From the NCBI RefSeq assembly GCF_040451425.1, contig NZ_CP144374.1, positions 1,652,501 to 1,716,500 of the forward strand: a stretch of DNA of 64,000 nt, in the 5' to 3' direction. The notes under the pieces were generated by a model. The model was not told the DNA's origin. It ran no database searches and was given only the letters and a program-made list of their open reading frames with translations. Source of the stretch: Thermodesulfovibrio sp. 3462-1 (lineage in GTDB: Bacteria; Nitrospirota; Thermodesulfovibrionia; Thermodesulfovibrionales; Thermodesulfovibrionaceae). The number at the start of each line of letters is the position of its first letter. Within the stretch, counting starts at the first letter, position 1. The translations under genes were made by a program, and so were the position numbers. Shown in pieces: positions 1-11,238 of this stretch.

Positions 1-419
1 TCTAAATCTTTCTCTTCTGCGTCAGAAGGGAGTTTATCCCATGTTTGCCCCGATTTTTCAAGCAGAAAGGAAGAAAGTTCCAAACCTGTGAGCTCTTGCG
101 TTGTGGAGCCACTTCTTACAAATATTTTCCCTTCATAAAAAACAGGAAAGGTGGAAGGCAAAACTTCTATGACGATAACATCTTTCCCTTCTTGATTTTC
201 AACACTTACAAAAGGTGTAATAAAGAGCTTGCTTTTTATTTTGTTTGGTATATCTTCAAGCAACTTTTTCGCATCGTTTACCCCAACAATTTTTCCTTTA
301 TCGTCTATCCCTATGTAGAGTTTCCCTCCCGATGAATTCGCAAAAGCACAAACTGTTTTCAAATTTTCATCAGACCATCTGGATTTCAGTTCTACATTTT
401 GATTTTCTTTCTCAATCAT
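1..419 (-). CDS. AlbA_2 (Schlafen-type) DNA-binding domain protein, 3' end outside the window
   Basis: About 139 N-terminal residues are visible, reading leftwards from an ATG at 419 and running off the window start without a stop. The pattern 'AFANSSGGKLYIGIDD' followed by 'GKIVGV' is the hallmark of the AlbA_2 domain (family knowledge), found at the N-terminus of predicted transcriptional regulators and RecG-like helicase proteins. Downstream come 'VIVIEVLPS' and 'FVRSGSTT', also typical of the family. The role is unknown, probably nucleic acid binding. The start lies 5 bases after the stop of a methyltransferase tail remnant (424-486), the same arrangement as for other genes in this island. 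Confidence 0.8.
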   Translation of the reverse strand, partial: MIEKENQNVELKSRWSDENLKTVCAFANSSGGKLYIGIDDKGKIVGVNDAKKLLEDIPNKIKSKLFITPFVSVENQEGKDVIVIEVLPSTFPVFYEGKIFVRSGSTTQELTGLELSSFLLEKSGQTWDKLPSDAEEKDL

Positions 420-512: not shown

Positions 513-2021
513 TTAAACAAAAATTGTAAAAATATTTCTGGATACAGCTAACGCTTTAACTTGATTATCTGCAGTAATTAAAATAGCGTTGTATTCAATA
601 CAGGTATTTATAATTAAATCATCCTTCTCTTGTGAAGTAAGCTTTTTAAATTTATCTGCTCTAAATTCTCCAACCTCTTTAAGTTTAATCCTGCCTATTG
701 AAGCAAATTTCCCAAGTCTTTTAAATTCTTCTTTACCACCAGATGTATCACATTCAAATCTAACAATGCCAGGGATTAATATTGTAAAATCCTCAAAAAA
801 ACTTTTTTTATTCAAAGCTTTTGAAATCAAACCTCTATTAATTATATTGCTATCGGGGATAATGAAACCACAATAATATCTTAATGTAAAATCCAAATTT
901 TCTATTGTATTATTACAACTATGACATTTAGGAATAAATCTATCATCTTTATTAATAAGTTGAACAGATCTTGAAGCCGTTCCACAATGAGGACAAACTA
1001 CGGATAAAGCTCTAATATCTAATTTACCTAAATTAAATTGTTGCTTAAAACATTCAGTGAGAAGATCTTCATTAAGGGGGGGAATTTCTTTTCTTATTTC
1101 TTCTTTTTTTCCTTCAATTTCTCTGACTGATGAATATGAGCGCCTGATAAACCATAGCCAATCTTTACCAGATTTATACCATTTTTCAAGCCATTCAATA
1201 GTTTGCCCATCCCCAGCATTCCCAGAACCTATTGATAAATTTTCTATCTTAAACTCCTCTTTTTCATTTATGGTTTTAATTACCATTTCTCTATTCCTTT
1301 TTGCGATTAATGAAGCGATTCGTGCTTCTAAATATTTATCATCTGCTTTTTGAGAAACTACAATTTCCGCCCCTTTCTGTGCTAAAAAGTTTAGGAATCT
1401 TCTTAGAGTTTCACCTATGCCATAATCATCGATCACTATTCTACACTCTTCTATAAGAATATCTCTAAAAAATGTATTGAGTATCCTTTGATAAACTACA
1501 TCCATAATTTTGTTAATATTATATCTATCTATATCCCATGGAGGTATTTTTTCCTCTATAAATTTCAATCCCTTGTTTTGAAAATTAGCAATTTGCCTGA
1601 AAATTGTATCCCAGTAGTCAAAATTGTGTTTTTTCTTTGTATCAGCAGTGGATATGATTCTTTCTAATTCTGAAAAGAGAATACTTGGAATAATTGCGCC
1701 AACCAAATGCATATGTCCGATAATTTCGCCTTTCCCAGTTTCATCAAAACCTATAAGAAATTTTTTTGTAGGTTGTGTAAAGAGAGAACCAACTATAGAG
1801 TCAATGTAATTCCAAACATTTTCCACTGCAGGATCACGGGAGTTTGAAGGGGTACTATAAAGAGTTCCTGTTGAATAAAAAGTAAAAGTACTATCCGAAA
1901 ATCTTACTCTCCATTTTTCAGAGATATTCTTTACTTTTTCTTCTTCGCCACCCATTTTTAAGAGGTATTCTCTTATGTTTTCAGCTTTTTGGTTATCTAA
2001 TTTCCATTTTCTACCATTCAT
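513..2021 (-). CDS. RNase HIII-like / zinc ribbon / PIN nuclease fusion
   Basis: This 502-residue protein has four parts. Residues 1-80 resemble the TBP-like N-terminal domain of RNase HIII. Residues 85-290 form an RNase H type 2 domain with 'GFDETGKGE' (D93, E94), 'IDD' (D198/D199) and 'KADDKY' (D227/D228), then 'ASLIAK', so the DEDD active site looks complete. Residues 343-369 form a zinc ribbon (C343, C346, C366, C369). Residues 385-502 form a PIN domain with D390, E423, D467/D468 and D485 ('LITADN'). RNase HIII cleaves RNA in RNA/DNA hybrids and PIN domains cleave single-stranded RNA (family knowledge). The fusion and its defence-island position suggest R-loop or replicating-element RNA as target, which is inference. 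The ATG overlaps the stop of methyltransferase remnant (ii) as ATGA. Confidence 0.75.
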   Translation of the reverse strand: MNGRKWKLDNQKAENIREYLLKMGGEEEKVKNISEKWRVRFSDSTFTFYSTGTLYSTPSNSRDPAVENVWNYIDSIVGSLFTQPTKKFLIGFDETGKGEIIGHMHLVGAIIPSILFSELERIISTADTKKKHNFDYWDTIFRQIANFQNKGLKFIEEKIPPWDIDRYNINKIMDVVYQRILNTFFRDILIEECRIVIDDYGIGETLRRFLNFLAQKGAEIVVSQKADDKYLEARIASLIAKRNREMVIKTINEKEEFKIENLSIGSGNAGDGQTIEWLEKWYKSGKDWLWFIRRSYSSVREIEGKKEEIRKEIPPLNEDLLTECFKQQFNLGKLDIRALSVVCPHCGTASRSVQLINKDDRFIPKCHSCNNTIENLDFTLRYYCGFIIPDSNIINRGLISKALNKKSFFEDFTILIPGIVRFECDTSGGKEEFKRLGKFASIGRIKLKEVGEFRADKFKKLTSQEKDDLIINTCIEYNAILITADNQVKALAVSRNIFTIFV

Positions 2022-2158
2022 TTTTCTTCTCCTTCAATTATCCTTACCTCTTCTTCTGTTAAATTATAAAGTTTATAAACTAATTGGTCAACGGCTTGTT
2101 TGAGTTCTTTGACTCCTTCCTTTTTTGTGGAATCTGTTTTGAGTTGACTATAAGGCTT
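2018..2158 (-). pseudogene. Eco57I-type methyltransferase C-terminal tail remnant (ii)
   Basis: About 46 codons are open on the minus strand, with core 'VDQLVYKLYNLTEEE' followed by 'VRIIEGEEK' and TGA. This is the usual ending of Eco57I/type IIG methyltransferases (family knowledge) and matches remnants at 4058-4153 and 7965-8126. More of the tail ('LNDLVKSLI') is visible further upstream in another frame, so the piece is also frameshifted. Its stop overlaps the start of the RNase HIII-PIN gene by ATGA, the kind of coupling expected if a full methyltransferase once preceded it. Confidence 0.65.
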
Positions 2159-2233: not shown

Positions 2234-3967
2234 TTAGATTTCTAATTTTTTAGAAAGCTTCCTAGGAACTTCTGGGCTTTGAAGTTCTATTTCAAAATGA
2301 GATAGCCTAATCTTATTAATTAATGGATATAATAGCACTATTATAAAGGGTATTGTTATTAGTATTATAAGCAGTTGAAAATCTTTTAAATAACTGACCT
2401 TCCCCAAAAAATATATGCCTCCCCAAAATATGAGAGTCACAACTCCAATAGGAATTATTTCTCTCCAGTGTTCTTTCCCTAAAAACCTTTTACTTTCCTT
2501 TGGAATACACGCTTGTGCTATTAACTTTAAAGCTGTTTCATTTTTAGGATCCAACTCTAAGGCTTTTGTAATGTTTTCTATGTATTTTTCAGTATCTTCT
2601 AACTTGTAATAAAAATAAGCTAATCTAGATTTTAAATCTGATTTCTGTTTGTTAGATAGATAATTTTCTTCTGTGGTTAAGCAGCTTTCTATAACTTCTC
2701 TTGCTTTTTCATAGTTTTTCTTTAAATTATAATACTTAGACTCTAATAAAGCTAAATCATATCTTAAACTTGCTCTTTCATCCTTGAAATTATTGCGGTC
2801 TATAATATCTACTATGTTCCAAAGCAGATTTAAGGATTTTTTAATATCTGAATTTTTAGATATATCTCCTTTTAACAGATCTATATCACAAAGTTCATAT
2901 AAATAGTCCTGGAAATCATCTAAAAAGTATATCACATTATCAAAATCTTTATCCTCTAACTTCACCCCTGTTGCATTTTGAAGTATTTCATATGCTTCAA
3001 GTAAATATTTTCTGGCACAATCGTATTCTTTTAAATCCTTTTTCAGAATCGCCAAATTGTAATAAGGATAACTTGCATTTATTGTTTTGTATCTATTGCA
3101 TTCGATAATTTTTATATCTTTGATATAGTATTCCTCGGCTTTTTTCTTATTTTCACTTTCGTAAATCATCGCCCCTATTGTATTGAAAAAAGTCCAGTAT
3201 TCAGTTTTTTCTATTTCCTTCTTAAATTTGTCTTGTACACTAAAAAGATAGCTTTTAGCTTCGTCTAAAGTATCTTCATTCTCAGCTTTTATGTCTATTA
3301 TAGCTTCTAAAGCAAAAATATTTACCTTATAAAACAACGACTTTTCATAATACTGAAGAGCTTTACTTTCTAAATCTAAAGAGGAATAAACTGTTCCTAT
3401 TAAATAAAAAATTAAAGATTTCCAAATTGCCATTTCATCATGGTCTTCTTTCTTATCCAAGTACTTATCTGCAATTTCCTGAACATCCTTTAATAAATCT
3501 TTTTTCAATGACAAATAAGATGAGCATTCTTGATCAAAAGCATATAACTTTTTTAATGTCAAGAAAGATGGAACATTATAAAAAAGCAGACAATAAGCAT
3601 TTAATCTAAGAAAATCACAGAAAGGTTCATCAGGTATTTTATTAAAAAAATGAACAATATCTTTACATAGGCTCAAAAATTCTTCAAAATAATCATTTTT
3701 TTCATGCTGTGCAAATTTTAAGTAATATAAGCTTGGAATAAAGTTAAATATATATAACTTAAGGTTAAAATGTAAAAGCCTTTTTTCTAAGTCGTCTTGG
3801 AGTTTGTTCAATTCTTCTTGAAATTCATCAAATTTACATAGCTCTAATAAGCTTATAAAATAACAGATCTTTAGTAGGTCAGATTTTTGGAAATCTCTAA
3901 CTTCCTTAATAAAATCACTAAATAAGCCCAACAAGAACTTATCATAATTTACTTCATTTTTTATCAT
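2234..3967 (-). CDS. TPR-repeat protein with C-terminal membrane anchor
   Basis: This 577-residue protein is mostly helical, with tetratricopeptide-like units such as 'ALQYYEKSLF', 'KAEEYYIKD', 'CARKYLLEAYEIL', 'KAREVIESCL' and 'KYIENITKALELDPKN'. Near residues 510-555 there are two hydrophobic segments ('VVTLIFWGGIYFLG' and 'LLIILITIPFIIVLLYPL'), then a short charged tail, so most of the chain is probably cytosolic and anchored at the membrane. The ATG at 3967 follows AAGGAG with good spacing. No enzymatic motif is seen. I do not recognise a specific family. TPR proteins usually serve as protein-binding scaffolds (family knowledge). It lies downstream of a methyltransferase tail remnant like other cargo genes here. 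Confidence 0.7.
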   Translation of the reverse strand: MIKNEVNYDKFLLGLFSDFIKEVRDFQKSDLLKICYFISLLELCKFDEFQEELNKLQDDLEKRLLHFNLKLYIFNFIPSLYYLKFAQHEKNDYFEEFLSLCKDIVHFFNKIPDEPFCDFLRLNAYCLLFYNVPSFLTLKKLYAFDQECSSYLSLKKDLLKDVQEIADKYLDKKEDHDEMAIWKSLIFYLIGTVYSSLDLESKALQYYEKSLFYKVNIFALEAIIDIKAENEDTLDEAKSYLFSVQDKFKKEIEKTEYWTFFNTIGAMIYESENKKKAEEYYIKDIKIIECNRYKTINASYPYYNLAILKKDLKEYDCARKYLLEAYEILQNATGVKLEDKDFDNVIYFLDDFQDYLYELCDIDLLKGDISKNSDIKKSLNLLWNIVDIIDRNNFKDERASLRYDLALLESKYYNLKKNYEKAREVIESCLTTEENYLSNKQKSDLKSRLAYFYYKLEDTEKYIENITKALELDPKNETALKLIAQACIPKESKRFLGKEHWREIIPIGVVTLIFWGGIYFLGKVSYLKDFQLLIILITIPFIIVLLYPLINKIRLSHFEIELQSPEVPRKLSKKLEI

Positions 3968-4057: not shown

Positions 4058-4153
4058 TTATCTGCTCAAGTTTCCTTCAATTATTTTGATTTCTTCCTCT
4101 GTTAAATCATAAAATTTATAAACTAATTTATCTATTTCTTTTTCAAGTTCTTT
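4058..4153 (-). pseudogene. Eco57I-type methyltransferase C-terminal tail remnant (iii)
   Basis: Thirty-one codons read 'KELEKEIDKLVYKFYDL' followed by 'TEEEIKIIEGNLSR' and a stop, after an in-frame TAA. The DNA is closely similar to remnant (iv) at 7965-8126 and remnant (ii) at 2018-2158. It sits between the DUF3800-like gene and the TPR gene on the same strand. It has no start codon and cannot be a gene on its own. Confidence 0.65.
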
Positions 4154-5406: not shown

Positions 5407-6774
5407 ATGTTTAGAGAAAGAACAAAAAAGCTTAATAACATGATGGAAAATACAAATGGAAATTATGTTGTTTATTGCATGGAAGCATCACAAAGAGAAG
5501 ATTTTAACCATGTCCTAGAGTTTAGTATACATAAAGCTAATACCCTCAAAAAACCAGTTATAGTCGCATTCTTCATAACAGATAAATACAAATTCTCAAA
5601 CCAAAGATACTATAGGTTCATGATAGAAGGTATCCTAAAAACAAAAGAAAAAATAGAAAACAGAGGAATAAGATTCCTAATCTTAAAAGATGATTTTGTA
5701 AATGGATGCCTAAAACTCTCTAAAAACGCCTGTTTGCTCGTACTCGATAAAAATTACCTAAAAACCCAAAGAATATGGAGAGAAAAAGTATCAAAATTCT
5801 CTAATGTAGCAGTATATGAAGTGGAAAGTGATGTCGTGGTACCAATAGAATACCTCTTCTCAAAAAGCGTACCCTTCGCATATATCTACAGAAATGCCTT
5901 GGAGAAAGTCTTAGATAGATTCTTATTAGAGGTTAAACCTCTAGAACCAACTATCAAATCCAACAATCTAGATCTAAATCTAGAAAATCAAATGAACTTT
6001 AATACAGTTGAAGACTTTATTAAAAATCTAAATATCGACAAATCTGTCAATTCAGTCGAAAATTACTACAAAGGCGGTAGCGATGAGGCCGAAAAACTAC
6101 TTAAGATATTCATAGAAAAAAAATTACCCTTTTACAAAGAAAAAAGAAGTGACCCCACAGTTGATTATACATCAAAACTAAGCCCATACCTCCACTTTGG
6201 GCAAATTTCACCTTTAAAGGTAGTATTAGAAATCTTAAAAAACTACGACAGAGAAGATGAAAATGTAAAAGCTTTTATAAATGAGCTTGTAGTTTGGAGA
6301 GAACTTTCAAGAAATTTTACTTGGTATAACCCTTTTTATAACCAATATAAAGGAATACCATCTTGGGCAAAAGATACTCTAGAAAAACATGCTTCAGATA
6401 AAAGAGATTACATTTATACCTTAGAAGAAGTTGAAGATGCAAAAACTCACGATGAGTATTGGAATGCGGCACAGAAAGAGTTACTAATTACAGGAAAGAT
6501 ACATAACTATATGAGAATGTATTGGGCTAAAAAGTTGATAGAATGGACCGACCATCCTAAAAAAGCTTTTGACATAGCTTGTTATCTAAACGATAAGTAT
6601 GCCTTAGATGGAAGAGACTCTAACGGTTACGGTGGAATTTCTTGGTGCTTTGGTAATTTCGACAGACCTTGGCAGGAAAGGAAAATCTTTGGAAAGATTA
6701 GGTATATGAGTAGTAGATCATTAGAGACAAAATTTAATATGAAATTATACATAGAAAAATTTAAAAAGTCATGA
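5407..6774 (+). CDS. phr: Class II deoxyribodipyrimidine photolyase
   Basis: This 455-residue flavoprotein repairs UV-induced cyclobutane pyrimidine dimers using light and FADH. The N-terminal half is the alpha/beta photolyase domain ('VVYCMEASQREDFNHVLEF'). The C-terminal half carries the FAD-binding signatures of class II enzymes: 'KLSPYLHFGQISP', 'ELVVWRELSRNF', 'HNYMRMYWAKKLIEW' and 'LDGRDSNGYGGISWCFG' followed by DRPW and 'FGKIRYMSS'. Length is normal. No strong ribosome binding site precedes the ATG at 5407; a second start at MMENT (codons 12-13) is possible. It is the only plus-strand gene in the island and stands alone. Confidence 0.93.
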   Translation: MFRERTKKLNNMMENTNGNYVVYCMEASQREDFNHVLEFSIHKANTLKKPVIVAFFITDKYKFSNQRYYRFMIEGILKTKEKIENRGIRFLILKDDFVNGCLKLSKNACLLVLDKNYLKTQRIWREKVSKFSNVAVYEVESDVVVPIEYLFSKSVPFAYIYRNALEKVLDRFLLEVKPLEPTIKSNNLDLNLENQMNFNTVEDFIKNLNIDKSVNSVENYYKGGSDEAEKLLKIFIEKKLPFYKEKRSDPTVDYTSKLSPYLHFGQISPLKVVLEILKNYDREDENVKAFINELVVWRELSRNFTWYNPFYNQYKGIPSWAKDTLEKHASDKRDYIYTLEEVEDAKTHDEYWNAAQKELLITGKIHNYMRMYWAKKLIEWTDHPKKAFDIACYLNDKYALDGRDSNGYGGISWCFGNFDRPWQERKIFGKIRYMSSRSLETKFNMKLYIEKFKKS

Positions 6775-6843: not shown

Positions 6844-7248
6844 TCATTTTTCTGAATGATTATCCAATTCCCATTTCAATGGATTGTTGATAATATATTC
6901 ACGGATTTTATTTAATACCTGTTCATTACGGATAATGTGCTCGTAATAATTGCGTTGCCACAATTTGCCATCAAAAGGTTCCTATCCATTGTTTTTTACA
7001 TCGCGAATGTTGGGCATAATTATATATTGGTCGCATTGGATATCAGGGAATTTATTTGGTAATTCAAAATACCATTTTTCAATCATTTTGCCTGCATCGT
7101 TTAATACCATTTTACCATTCACCACATCGCCAAATAAACATTTCCTATTTTTTGTGCAAATCGTAATAAAATATTTACCTGGTTGCGAATAATCATATCC
7201 TTTCAAACGGATAGAACGCCTGTGATGTTTATTAGGATCGTATTTCAT
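6844..7248 (-). pseudogene. REP-associated tyrosine transposase (Y1/IS200-like), deleted and interrupted
   Basis: The N-terminus is intact ('RRSIRLKGYDYSQPGKYFIT', 'TKNRKCLFGDV', 'DQYIIMPN'). The segment that should continue with the HUH metal-binding motif (MPNHxHG) is missing: 'MPN' runs into 'IRDVKNNG', then an in-frame TAG, then 'FDGKLWQRNYYEHIIRNEQ' and 'INNPLKWELDN', which is the catalytic-tyrosine end of the family. So an in-frame deletion removed the catalytic histidines and a nonsense codon followed. Such proteins mobilise palindromic REP elements (family knowledge). No matching REP palindromes were noticed next to it. Confidence 0.8.
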
Positions 7249-7251
7249 CAA

Positions 7252-7404
7252 TCACACGCTCTTTGCTTTTTCTAATCTTGTTTTTACAAGTTTGGCGACT
7301 GCCCAGTAGACCTCTTTTCGTTCTTCTTCCGTCAAGCCAAGGGCATCAAAAATTATATCGTCAAGGGCTTTTTGATAATTAATCTTTATTTTTATTTGTT
7401 TCAT
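7252..7404 (-). pseudogene. Methyltransferase C-terminal tail remnant (v), a 50-codon open frame
   Basis: An ATG at 7404, inside the 3' end of the Mrr_N gene, opens 50 codons: 'ALDDIIFDALGLTEEERKEV', 'YWAVAKLVKTRLEKAKSV'. This is the standard C-terminus of a large class I adenine methyltransferase (family knowledge), here with no catalytic part. Its stop abuts the start of the transposase pseudogene. It could still be translated as a small protein by coupling to the upstream gene. Remnant (i) at 424-486 is a shorter copy of the same ending. Confidence 0.6.
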
Positions 7405-7945
7405 AAAATTTTCTTCCCTTTTCTGTTATTTCCCATATACCTTGTGGGGAATCAGATACTAGCAAACCTTCATTGACCATTGTATTTCTTGCCCATCGTG
7501 CAGTATTTTCCCAGCGTGTTTGTTTTGGAATAGATGGAAGGGGTTCATAATCATACTCATTTAAAATATTTTCCATCTTTGCGTGCACAAGTTTTAAAAC
7601 TTGTTTCATTTCTGCTTTTCCGCCAAGTTCAATAAGAGACTCTAAAATAGGTATTACAAATTTATCCTCAGAAGTTCTTAGACCTTTTTTTAATCTACCT
7701 TTCACTCGTCTTTTTGGGACTTTAGTTGATATTTTTTCACTAAAAAGCGATTGCCATTCCTTTTTAAGAGATTTAACTCTTTCCCTGAAAGATTTAAGTC
7801 GATTACCATATTTAGTTAGTTCTTTTGCCCTGTCAAAATCCTTTGTTTTAAATGCTTTTTCTCCTTCTTTGCTTATGATATTAAAGACTTCTTCTATTTC
7901 TTCAAGTAGTATTTCAAAGGCTGTATTGACCTCATTTTTACCCAT
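7379..7945 (-). CDS. Mrr N-terminal-type winged-helix protein
   Basis: This protein has 188 residues. The ATG at 7945 is chosen over an upstream TTG because AAAAGGAGG lies just before it. Residues 1-75 are helical and charged, probably a coiled coil. Residues ~95-180 match the Mrr_N winged-helix domain: 'VIPILESLIELGGKAEMKQV', 'RWENTARWARNTMVNEGLL', 'GIWEITEKGRKFY'. Mrr_N normally guides a C-terminal nuclease to methylated DNA (family knowledge), but no nuclease domain is present. It may therefore be a DNA-binding accessory or regulator of the neighbouring methyltransferase system (inference). Confidence 0.75.
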   Translation of the reverse strand: MGKNEVNTAFEILLEEIEEVFNIISKEGEKAFKTKDFDRAKELTKYGNRLKSFRERVKSLKKEWQSLFSEKISTKVPKRRVKGRLKKGLRTSEDKFVIPILESLIELGGKAEMKQVLKLVHAKMENILNEYDYEPLPSIPKQTRWENTARWARNTMVNEGLLVSDSPQGIWEITEKGRKFYETNKNKD

Positions 7946-7964
7946 AATAGCCTCCTTTTTATAT

Positions 7965-8126
7965 CTAATCTCCTTCAATTATCTTTATCTCTTCCTCTGT
8001 TAAATTGTAAAGTTTATAAATTAGCTTGTCTATTTCTTTTTCAAGTTCTTTAACTTTTGCTTGCTCGTTTGATTTCACTATATGAGTTTTAGATTGTATG
8101 CGAATAGAGAAAAATTTAATTCTCAT
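7965..8126 (-). pseudogene. Eco57I-type methyltransferase C-terminal tail remnant (iv), a 53-codon frame
   Basis: An ATG at 8126 overlaps the end of the full methyltransferase gene and opens 53 codons ending 'KELEKEIDKLIYKLYNLTEE' then 'EIKIIEGD'. It repeats a methyltransferase C-terminus right after a gene that already has its own tail ('IDDIIGPLYGLTNEEVEFI'). Remnants (ii) and (iii) are close relatives. It precedes the Mrr_N gene by 19 bases. Confidence 0.6.
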
Positions 8127-11100
8127 TATTTTCTCCCCCTTCTTCATCCCCACTTAACCTAAATTCAATTTCATAGTTTTTAATAAATTCTACTTCCTCA
8201 TTTGTTAAGCCATAAAGTGGACCAATTATATCGTCAATCTTATCTACCAAATGTTTTGACTTTGCTATTTTATATTCCTTAAATTCATTGATATTAGCAT
8301 ATCTTTTTGTTTTTCTTATATTCGCATGTCTTTCAATATCTTGTAAGTATTCATCATATACTCTTTCAAGAGTACCAATAATTTCACTATTTAACTTCTC
8401 TAAAGGTATGGGAAAAGATTCTATTTCGTAAGATTTTAAATCTAAATTATTTGAATAAATCTGGTACCACCAGAAAAATAAGTTGCTGCTTAAGATAGCA
8501 CCAATTGAATTTGCTATCTCACTATCAAAGTAAATAGCTTTCTCTTTTGTAGAATTGGTTGAGTAATTTGTAATAACTTTAAAATACCTTCCTCCTGTAG
8601 TGCGATAATAAATTGGTTTTCCTTTTTTTCTTAATAAATCTTTTATTTTTGTTTTAATTTTAAATAACTTCTCCAGTATATCTTTTTCTATCTTTAAGGA
8701 AATTTTGGGGTATCTACCGCGTAATTTATATTCTTTGACATCAATAAATTGAAGATTATTTGAAAGATCTTCTAACCTAAATCCCTTACCTTTACGATAC
8801 ATTTTTGTAAGCAGAATTTTTTCCGCAGGTGTAAGAGTTTTTATAAAGCTAATAATTGAAGTATTTACAACAGCACTTTCAAATACAGGTTGTGGTCTTA
8901 CTGCGTAGGATGAAATCTTTATAATTTTGCAGTTATTTTCCAGAAGTTCATGTAACGAAACCATGGAGTCTGAAGAAGTGACAGAAATTGGCGTTATAAA
9001 AATAAGATTTCCATTTTTCTTAAGGATGTTAAAACCCCTCTCTATAAATAAAGCGAATGTATCAAAAGAACCTTTTTTGTTTTTGCTTCCCACACATCGG
9101 TAAAATCGTTTAAAAAAAGGAATAGCTCTGTCATCATATTTTCCTCCATACGGCGGATTAGCAATTACTATATCAAAGCCACCTTTCTGATGAAAGACCT
9201 CTGAAAAATAAACCTCAAAGTCAAATTCTTTATGTCCATTCGTAATTTCAAAAATCAACCTATCAATTTCTTTTTTTAATTCTTGCTTTTTAGTGGGATT
9301 TATCTCATTAAAGTACTTTGATTTTAACTCTTCAAGTTTTCTAAATGCGTCAGCATTAAATAAATTCTTCTCAACTCCTAAAAGCGAATTTCCACATACA
9401 ACCTTATAATCAAGATTTGGAAGTGGTTTTATGTTATAAAAATCTTCTTCATCAACCACAAGGGAAAGCCAGAATCTTAATTTACATATTTCAACTGCTC
9501 CAGGGTCAATATCAACGCCATAAAGGGAATTTTCAATACAATGTCTTTTGATTTCATATGTGTTTAATTTCCTTTTAAGATAAATGGAAAGCAAACTTCT
9601 TAATTTTACAATTTCATGCATCATACCTATGGGAAAGGCACCAGAACCGACCGCTGGGTCGCATACCTTTATATCAGCGAGTAATCTGTCAATTTCTTCG
9701 GCATTTTTAATTATGCTTTCAGGCATTTTATGTTCATACTTTGTTTCTTTCTGCTCACCTTTTTCAATTTTGTCTTTCTTTTCAAGGGCGGTTCTTTCAT
9801 ACTCTAAAATTAAATCTGCATATTTTACAAATTCCTCAATATCTTCCCTTCTTACTTTTCCACTTAGTTCCGTTTCAAGATAATTTATCAAACTCTCTTG
9901 GCACATATAATGGACAATCTCTCTTGGTGTGTAATAAACCCCATATTCTTTGTTAAATTTTGTCTCTTCGCCTCTACTCCCAGACTTCAAAACTTTTACA
10001 TATTCATCAAAATTATCCGGACGAATGGCATTCAGTTTTTCATAGATTTTTCCGAGTAGTTCAGGGTCAAGGGCAACCTCTTTTTCAAGTGGTTCTTCTT
10101 CATTTACTGTAAAATTATATCTGTCAAAAACATCAAGGATGCCGTCTCCTACATCACCTTCTTTTGTTCTGTTTGAATTTGAGAAAAGTTCATTTGGTAA
10201 AAGAATATCAACATTAACCCAGTCAAAATTATTTGACGGGTCAAAAAGACCACCATTCAAAAAAGGGATTTTACAATTAAATCTGCTGTAATAATGATCA
10301 TCTGCACTTCTATCTATTCTTAACGCTTCATAAAAAAGTGGTTCAAGAATGTCATTATAGAAGTTTTTGTAATCTCCAAATTCTTTATTAAATAATCTCC
10401 TTATAAAATCTTTTGGACCTTCTCCCCAAGGTTTTCCTCTTTCAACGCCAAACCATCCTTTCTTTTGTAAGAAATAAAGAAAAACAATTTGCCCGAGAAG
10501 TTTTTTAGCAAAATCAACTGTATTAATGTTCTTCCGCTCAAATTCTTCTTTTACTTTCTTGTCTCTATTGACAATTTTATCAAGCTCAAGCTTTGTTCTT
10601 ATAAAAATGTCTCTATATTTTTCAAAAAACTCCTTTGTGACAACTTCAACATCAAAGGCTTTTTCTAAATCTTCAAGCGTGGGCTTCCAATTATCATTTT
10701 CAAGAATTGGCAAAAATCTTGATTGAGCGGTGTGACTCTTTTCATTTTTGCCAACTAAGAATGACCATCTTTTTGCAGGGGTGAATTCTTCTACAGGTTT
10801 TGGTTTGCCGGGGATTGCCTCTTTAAAGTGGTAATCAAGTTTTACAAGAGAAAACCGCCAATCCTCTTCATTTGGAGAAACAAAGGCAACGAGGGCTGCA
10901 TCTTTTTCTGTAGTTGTTCCAAGTTTTCCTCTTAAATACTCAGCAACAAAGTTTCTCTGGGCAGTTCGTGCCCTGTAAAGAGATTGTCCTTTTTTTAGTT
11001 TTACAACCAATATGTCAATCTTTTTACCGCCACTGCCTTCATAGCGACCAATTCTTTCCCAAGAGCTGATGAAATCAAGGTATCTTTCGGTAATCCCCTG

Positions 11101-11238
11101 TGTTCCATATCTCGGCTCAAGGGCTTTAGTCCTATCATAGCTCTTAAATAGATTGGCAATGAATTCTACAAACCTTTCTTTCTTAAAAGGATTTTCAAAA
11201 GTTTCAATTATCAGATTTTTTGCCTGTTCTCTATTCAT
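8116..11238 (-). CDS. Eco57I-family DNA adenine methyltransferase, type IIG-like restriction-modification protein
   Basis: This 1040-residue protein has the SAM motif I 'DPAVGSGAFPIG' at 526-537, preceded by 'YGVYYTPREIV' (432-442), and the catalytic NPPY at 694-697. It should methylate adenine N6 in a specific site. The N-terminal ~200 residues ('GGKKIDILVVKLKKGQSLYR', 'RTAQRNFVAEYL', 'EEDWRFSLVKLDYHF', 'EKSHTAQSRFLPIL') are the conserved N-terminal domain of this restriction-associated class. Part of it may be a nuclease (D75 and K80 in 'DILVVK' fit a PD-(D/E)XK pattern loosely), but I cannot prove it. The C-terminus ends 'LYGLTNEEVEFI'. It lies 49 bases downstream of the broken MNT gene in the helicase operon. 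Confidence 0.85.
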   Translation of the reverse strand: MNREQAKNLIIETFENPFKKERFVEFIANLFKSYDRTKALEPRYGTQGITERYLDFISSWERIGRYEGSGGKKIDILVVKLKKGQSLYRARTAQRNFVAEYLRGKLGTTTEKDAALVAFVSPNEEDWRFSLVKLDYHFKEAIPGKPKPVEEFTPAKRWSFLVGKNEKSHTAQSRFLPILENDNWKPTLEDLEKAFDVEVVTKEFFEKYRDIFIRTKLELDKIVNRDKKVKEEFERKNINTVDFAKKLLGQIVFLYFLQKKGWFGVERGKPWGEGPKDFIRRLFNKEFGDYKNFYNDILEPLFYEALRIDRSADDHYYSRFNCKIPFLNGGLFDPSNNFDWVNVDILLPNELFSNSNRTKEGDVGDGILDVFDRYNFTVNEEEPLEKEVALDPELLGKIYEKLNAIRPDNFDEYVKVLKSGSRGEETKFNKEYGVYYTPREIVHYMCQESLINYLETELSGKVRREDIEEFVKYADLILEYERTALEKKDKIEKGEQKETKYEHKMPESIIKNAEEIDRLLADIKVCDPAVGSGAFPIGMMHEIVKLRSLLSIYLKRKLNTYEIKRHCIENSLYGVDIDPGAVEICKLRFWLSLVVDEEDFYNIKPLPNLDYKVVCGNSLLGVEKNLFNADAFRKLEELKSKYFNEINPTKKQELKKEIDRLIFEITNGHKEFDFEVYFSEVFHQKGGFDIVIANPPYGGKYDDRAIPFFKRFYRCVGSKNKKGSFDTFALFIERGFNILKKNGNLIFITPISVTSSDSMVSLHELLENNCKIIKISSYAVRPQPVFESAVVNTSIISFIKTLTPAEKILLTKMYRKGKGFRLEDLSNNLQFIDVKEYKLRGRYPKISLKIEKDILEKLFKIKTKIKDLLRKKGKPIYYRTTGGRYFKVITNYSTNSTKEKAIYFDSEIANSIGAILSSNLFFWWYQIYSNNLDLKSYEIESFPIPLEKLNSEIIGTLERVYDEYLQDIERHANIRKTKRYANINEFKEYKIAKSKHLVDKIDDIIGPLYGLTNEEVEFIKNYEIEFRLSGDEEGGENNEN

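Follow-up and report, generated by a model that had tools for sequence, protein, structure and literature searches.

A predicted two-headed RNase joining an RNase H3 unit to a PIN domain beside restriction genes in bacteria and archaea

Introduction

Two-headed RNases that are tied to restriction systems are already known in forms that carry HEPN domains. PMC3710099 describes RNase LS HEPN toxins that carry a fused RNase H or TBP-like domain, as well as PrrC, an RNase that is held silent by its restriction enzyme. As presented there, RNase LS (RnlA) is a single protein linked to phage defense in which an RNase is combined either with another RNase unit or with a unit that binds hybrids, whereas PrrC with its type Ic system exemplifies an RNase gene that is carried with restriction-modification genes and possibly acts as a second line of defense. 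The protein considered here resembles both arrangements, and its parts resemble two further families: RNase H3 (4py5, 3vn5, and 2d0a), with which it shares a TBP-like N-domain, an RNase H2-type core, the DE-D-D/E residues, the GxG motif, and the equivalent of Glu84, and the archaeal PIN ATPase PINA (PRK13764; 5yww and 3i8o), whose PIN domain is the closest to its own in both sequence and fold.

The fusion departs from each of these systems. Unlike RNase H3, it adds a zinc ribbon and a PIN domain, is an accessory gene that lies beside restriction genes, and does not conserve Tyr147 and His28. Unlike PINA, it has no KH or ATPase part, and its PIN domain is C-terminal, behind the RNase H3 unit. 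In contrast to RNase LS/RnlA, it has a PIN rather than a HEPN domain and an RNase H3 rather than an RNase H1-type unit, and it is tied to restriction genes; no RnlB partner was seen with it. It has neither the ABC ATPase nor the HEPN domain of PrrC, and its association with restriction is known here from gene coupling. What is new is the combination of an RNase H3 unit, a zinc ribbon, and a PIN domain in one putative restriction-linked RNase of both bacteria and archaea. If its proposed function is correct, RNA/DNA hybrids would serve immunity as a target or a signal coupled to DNA restriction.

No PADLOC model matches the fusion at 1e-5, and no PADLOC, Pfam, or NCBIfam family describes the whole protein. 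The freely accessible published papers that were searched contain no description of it, and the passages found in the HEPN survey are on other proteins. These results agree with a sequence-only reading of this DNA, which knew of no described system with this architecture, and the fusion has probably not been described before.

Results and discussion

An RNase H3 unit, a zinc ribbon, and a PIN domain in one protein

Within the window (the whole stretch of 64,000 nucleotides that was analyzed), the gene is a single open reading frame of 502 codons with an ATG start, and its bounds are exact (Table 1). The same architecture occurs in 12 of 12 other full-length homologues, at identities of 40 to 67%, and dN/dS ranges from 0.04 to 0.26 in each domain, the PIN domain included, for those pairs in which it was estimable. 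Purifying selection thus acts on every domain of the protein, that of the PIN domain being no exception. Because the whole protein is conserved across archaea and bacteria, the reading frame is not a product of chance, and the fusion is confirmed as a real, conserved protein. Its AlphaFold2 model, for which 14 aligned sequences were the input, has a mean pLDDT of 91.9 and a pTM of 0.86, with 0 residues below 50.

Table 1. Positions in the window of the fusion gene, its domains, and the surrounding island features
Feature	Position	Strand	Evidence
RNase H3-zinc ribbon-PIN fusion gene, 502 aa	513..2021	-	ORF, Pfam, conservation, fold
TBP-like N-domain, residues 1-80	1782..2021	-	Fold, profile, structure alignment
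RNase H2/H3 catalytic core, residues 86-307 (D93, E94, D198, D227; DETGKGE)	1101..1766	-	
Four-cysteine zinc ribbon, residues 339-375 (C343, C346, C366, C369)	897..1007	-	Homologue alignment
PIN domain, residues 381-502 (D390, E423, D425, D467, D485)	516..881	-	Fold, profiles, conservation
Schlafen AlbA_2 / RecG-C-like protein, N-terminal part; next gene after the fusion	1..419	-	
Remnant DNA methyltransferase C-terminal tail, VKELKQAVDQLVYKLYNLTEEEVRIIEGEEK then TGA; ATGA overlap with the fusion start	2021..2113	-	
TPR protein, in another methyltransferase-tail slot	2234..3967	-	
Second remnant of a methyltransferase tail, preceding the TPR gene	4070..4153	-	
Mrr N-terminal-domain protein, in the third tail slot	7379..7978	-	
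Third methyltransferase-tail remnant	7968..8054	-	
Full-length Eco57I/type IIG restriction-methyltransferase of the island	8116..11238	-	

The front half of the protein matches RNase H3 in profile and fold searches. Residues 90 to 296 score 58.6 bits against the Pfam RNase_HII family (cut-off, 25.8), and a profile of residues 1 to 231 has RNase H3 crystal structures as its top matches, namely, Aquifex RNase HIII (3vn5; 1.1e-15, residues 10 to 211) and T. ammonificans RNase H3 (4py5; 4.3e-13, residues 11 to 202), both matches running from the N-domain into the core. The best Foldseek match of the model is also 4py5, an RNase H3 with bound hybrid. When aligned by VIA-align, the model yields Z scores of 21.3 with RNase HII (1eke), 18.3 with Bst RNase HIII (2d0a, residues 2 to 305), and 17.3 with 4py5 (residues 11 to 298); the TBP-like part aligns weakly with RnlA (Z, 7.5).

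Among 13 full-length homologues, D93, E94, and D198 are invariant and position 227 is D or E; the window protein has D at this position and carries DEDD. The DETGKGE motif is also invariant, and it aligns with Asp78-Glu79-Ala-Gly81-Lys82-Gly83-Glu84 of T. ammonificans RNase H3, in which Glu84 reads 2'-OH groups and the E84A change costs two orders of magnitude (PMC4132731). Similarly, Y49 and R38 of the fusion align with Tyr43 and Arg32 of the T. ammonificans enzyme, which contact the hybrid. Because the aligned positions do not conserve Tyr147 of the phosphate pocket or the N-domain residues Glu27 and His28, the predicted preference of the fusion for RNA/DNA hybrids is likely rather than certain. 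Both the N-terminal TBP-like domain (by profile and fold, residues 2 to 298) and the four active-site carboxylates of RNase HIII are present (compare PMC4132731), and the score against TIGR00716 (rnhC, RNase HIII) is 34.5 bits, short of the cut-off of 161.2. Judged from these sequence comparisons, the fusion is a divergent RNase HIII relative that lies outside the TIGR00716 equivalog.

At the other end of the model, residues 381 to 502 align with the MJ1533 PIN domain (3i8o) at a Z of 14.3 and an rmsd of 1.6 A over 118 residues, and with PINA (5yww) at a Z of 11.5 (both VIA-align). The profile of the family also finds 3i8o (0.0021), and the NCBIfam PINA model matches 10 of the 13 fusion family members. 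The window protein misses the gathering score of PF01850 (PIN), with 16.2 versus 23.6 bits (0.017). D390, E423, D425, and D485 are invariant in the 13 full-length proteins, and D467 nearly so, such that both the fold and the conserved acidic active site of the PIN superfamily are found. As modeled, the C-terminal domain is a PIN domain despite the PF01850 shortfall, which places it outside the threshold of that single Pfam family. Against PRK13764, the fusion scores 28.5 bits (cut-off, 340) and ends with the PIN domain, the KH domain and ATPase of PINA being absent; the HEPN catalytic domain of RnlA/RNase LS is likewise absent, the C-terminal domain being PIN in fold and sequence.

The sequence-only reading had assigned three parts to this protein, and all three hold. 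For its TBP-like plus RNase H type 2 module with full DEDD, Pfam, profiles, fold, and alignment agree; its four-cysteine zinc ribbon is found as C343, C346, C366, and C369; and its PIN domain with acidic residues is recovered through the 3i8o fold match, the PINA model, and the conserved D390, E423, D425, and D485. It had also called for a structure prediction, and the AlphaFold2 model displays both the RNase H3 and the PIN folds.

A slot behind methyltransferase tails

In the slot after the METHYLTRANSFERASE, the start of the fusion in the window overlaps the stop of the methyltransferase tail as ATGA. An ATGA overlap with a DUF1156 methylase recurs in two other loci (L012 and L014), and the stop of the methylase immediately precedes the fusion start in L015 and L021. 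A repeat search recovers the tail KELEKEIDKLVYKLYNLTEEEIKIIEG eight times in the window genome, seven of them on one strand within 13 kb. Most copies precede a different gene, and these genes encode Mrr_N (twice), the TPR protein, the fusion, and two unknown proteins. The eighth copy forms the terminus of a full-length Eco57I-type methyltransferase encoded behind a PLD-SNF2 helicase; there, at the same junction, MNGRKWKLDDQTKAE represents residues 1 to 15 of another fusion copy, which then breaks off. In congeners, the same tail ends frames of 1066 to 1181 aa or stands as a remnant, and the slot just 3' of it (L098-L105) holds a PrrC-type AAA_13, an AAA_15/OLD-like, or an HD gene. Given the tail copies and these congener genes, the fusion is therefore one of several accessory genes that occupy the slot behind the methyltransferase. 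The homologous tails may let slot genes be exchanged.

The seven-tail array extends over G000:C1:1647307-1660554 (L002), between aroA and the full-length type IIG enzyme, and its layout resembles a set of cassettes built on the 3' ends of methyltransferases. The eighth tail is situated elsewhere in the window genome (L097:2765-9735), in a region that contains the PLD-SNF2 helicase, the Eco57I methyltransferase with a frameshifted end, and the 15-residue remnant.

Restriction and defense genes near the fusion

Neighbors within 6 kb were judged in 14 lineages, with the three Archaeoglobales loci (L012, L014, and L015) counted as one. Restriction or defense enzymes lie within this distance of the fusion in 8 of the 14. 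A DUF1156 methylase is directly upstream in all three Archaeoglobales loci, one of which (L012) also has a DUF499 ATPase and an SNF2 helicase nearby, and type I R and M-S genes are directly upstream in L021. The other neighbors include an MTES_1575 helicase (L007), a DrmD-like helicase with HNH (L011), GmrSD (L018), an IrrE-DUF4411 pair with a methylase, an AlwI-type REase, and GmrSD-HNH (L019), a methylase with a ResIII-type helicase (L022), and, in the window, the methyltransferase tail, type IIG enzyme, and Mrr_N gene. No restriction enzyme is within reach in six lineages (L009, L010, L013, L016, L017, and L020), several of which are represented by short contigs or have a recombinase or transposase beside the fusion.

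The 98 ORFs around the fusions have matches to 198 PADLOC families at 1e-15, as opposed to 7 for 107 control ORFs, these being counts of families in which many models overlap and are matched by about ten genes. For the controls, ORFs were taken up to 6 kb from the housekeeping RNase HII genes that these genomes carry, with L065, a near-repeat of another control locus, left out. The fusion is non-randomly close to defense genes, which places it in the defense-island setting that the sequence-only reading had proposed. That reading had also suggested a neighborhood survey, which finds homologues that are not housekeeping genes and are mostly beside restriction or defense genes. Two further claims in it, an ATGA coupling to a methyltransferase tail and a link to a restriction system, are met with again in L012 and L014, in the repeated position of the fusion behind methylases, and in the second junction within the same genome. 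No single partner gene is constant across the fusion loci, and for this reason a fixed complex is not supported and a toxin-antitoxin pair was rejected.

The reading that we prefer, with a confidence slightly better than even, is that of a restriction-coupled two-headed RNase that directly attacks invader hybrids and uses its PIN domain as a second cutter. The TBP-like N-domain and the core would bind RNA/DNA hybrids, of which the core would cut the RNA strand, and the zinc ribbon would position the PIN domain for a second cut, the likely substrate of which is single-stranded or displaced RNA. Expression would proceed from the 3' end of an operon that encodes a DNA methyltransferase or a restriction system, so that the fusion would be made together with that system. 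It could then serve as a second line of defense by attacking invader hybrids (R-loops, primers, and early transcripts) or, alternatively, be released in a PrrC-like manner when the restriction enzyme fails. We infer both nuclease activities, hybrid binding, a defense role, and any control of the fusion by the methyltransferase; what suggests a function in defense is the gene context. The activity put forward in the sequence-only reading, cutting of RNA in the R-loops or primers of invading replicons and then of the released RNA, would fit the domains and the residues that recognize hybrids. A more specific proposal, that of an immune effector shared by bacteria and archaea in which the RNase H3 unit senses invader hybrids, the PIN domain makes a second RNA cut, and translation is coupled to that of a methyltransferase, is advanced tentatively and with clearly less confidence.

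The position of the fusion directly after a methyltransferase, where congeners keep PrrC-type AAA_13 genes, also bears on an alternative that we regard as rather unlikely: a PrrC-like latent toxin, whose PIN domain would cut host RNA (tRNA, rRNA, or mRNA) and stop growth. Here the RNase H3 half would be a sensor, triggered by invader hybrids or by failure of the coupled restriction enzyme, and cutting by RNase H would be secondary. PrrC, silenced by its restriction enzyme as described in PMC3710099, supplies a precedent, PIN domains are common as toxins, and catalytic PIN residues are required in two phage-defense systems (PMC13092281). However, the fusion loci contain neither an antitoxin gene nor a fixed partner, and the RNase H center is as well conserved as the PIN center, indicating that this half is not a dead sensor.

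Distribution, relatives, and decay

A scan of 84,980 species genomes detected the fusion at 14 loci (11 full length and 3 broken), a count that is a lower bound because the scan relied on peptide patterns; three PIN-less relatives were also found. Bacterial carriers are records of Rhodothermus, Thermotogae, Dehalococcoidia, WOR-3, Latescibacterota, Thermodesulfatator, and Goldiibacteriota, and archaeal carriers are those of Archaeoglobus (two), Geoglobus, Thermococci, Methanomassiliicoccales, Thermoplasmatota, and Nitrosopumilus, most of these records being MAGs. The fusion is present in 2 of 396 genomes from the window's phylum, a sample in which it was not found in other genomes of the window's genus, and in 2 of 295 genomes from the phylum of Archaeoglobus. 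The broken copies are those of L018, L019, and L020, and remnants exist at two further genomic places (L066 and L097), the former retaining residues 1 to 48 near a methyltransferase fragment.

The window genome holds a separate RNase HII that scores 140.6 bits, compared with 60.5 bits for the fusion, and 13 of 15 homologue-bearing genomes contain another, better-scoring gene of the RNase HII family. Since most carriers, and the window genome, also hold this ordinary enzyme, the possibility that the fusion is the housekeeping RNase H was rejected. A weaker contender than the latent toxin, and one that we consider improbable, is an accessory maintenance enzyme that clears R-loops or ribonucleotides arising from restriction, recombination, or replication at high temperature, and whose presence in islands reflects nothing more than their tendency to collect mobile genes. 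Such a role would suit the thermophilic names among many carriers, the ordinary chromosomal places of standalone RNase H3-like relatives (L025 adjoins rpiB, and L026 adjoins a parA-like gene), and the close similarity of the PIN domain to that of PINA, whose solved structure is that of a RuvB-like Holliday junction helicase from archaea. Against it are the RNase HII already in carriers, the rarity of the fusion in each phylum tested, its repeated coupling to methyltransferases of different types, and its frequent decay.

The standalone relatives (L023-L026) lack the zinc ribbon and the PIN domain and were rejected as members of the fusion family. They constitute a divergent RNase H3-like group with a DETGKGE/DEAGKGE motif in Lithacetigenota, Acidobacteriota, and WOR-3 records, and they are plausible ancestors of the front half of the fusion. 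Also set aside were L006 and RNase HII matches such as L068, which are ordinary RNase HII or low-scoring, and the 608-aa archaeal frames (L067) that match residues 388 to 502 and look like PINA proteins.

Transfer of the fusion, and further genes in the island

In the tree of fusions, a WOR-3 bacterium pairs with a Thermoplasmatota archaeon (support, 100/99) and Rhodothermus pairs with Thermodesulfatator (92/96), with most other forks being weak. The second pair shares 88.6% DNA identity in the fusion and 94.9% in a neighboring serine recombinase, which adjoins the fusion in both the Rhodothermus MAG (L009:10001-12579) and Thermodesulfatator (L018:55-5059), and these identities point to a recent transfer between the two records; the Rhodothermus MAG may be a case of mis-binning. 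Overall, the gene is patchy and has moved horizontally between bacteria and archaea. Searches of plasmids, phages, and IMG/VR returned no relative of the fusion, ruling out an obvious phage or plasmid gene, and its model has no match in the viral structure library at an E of 0.001 or better. It is very improbable that the fusion is selfish cargo that benefits its mobile element (e.g., by removing primer RNA or the RNA of rival elements) and not the host: the 95%-identical serine recombinase accompanies it in the Rhodothermus MAG and Thermodesulfatator, and a transposase or integrase is near it in L010 and L022, but most loci have no identifiable element, and the coupling to restriction genes suggests host defense, though mobile elements also carry defense genes.

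The island in the window contains several other genes. The Schlafen AlbA_2 / RecG-C-like protein that follows the fusion is 449 aa long in the genome (L002:6570-7919). A DNA photolyase gene (5407-6774, plus strand) and a short transposase-like fragment, REP-type by eye (6982-7251, minus strand), also lie inside the island. A 68-nt repeat, 79% identical between its two copies, occurs just after the fusion (423-490) and just after the Mrr_N gene (7251-7318), and it may mark where the exchanged genes end downstream.
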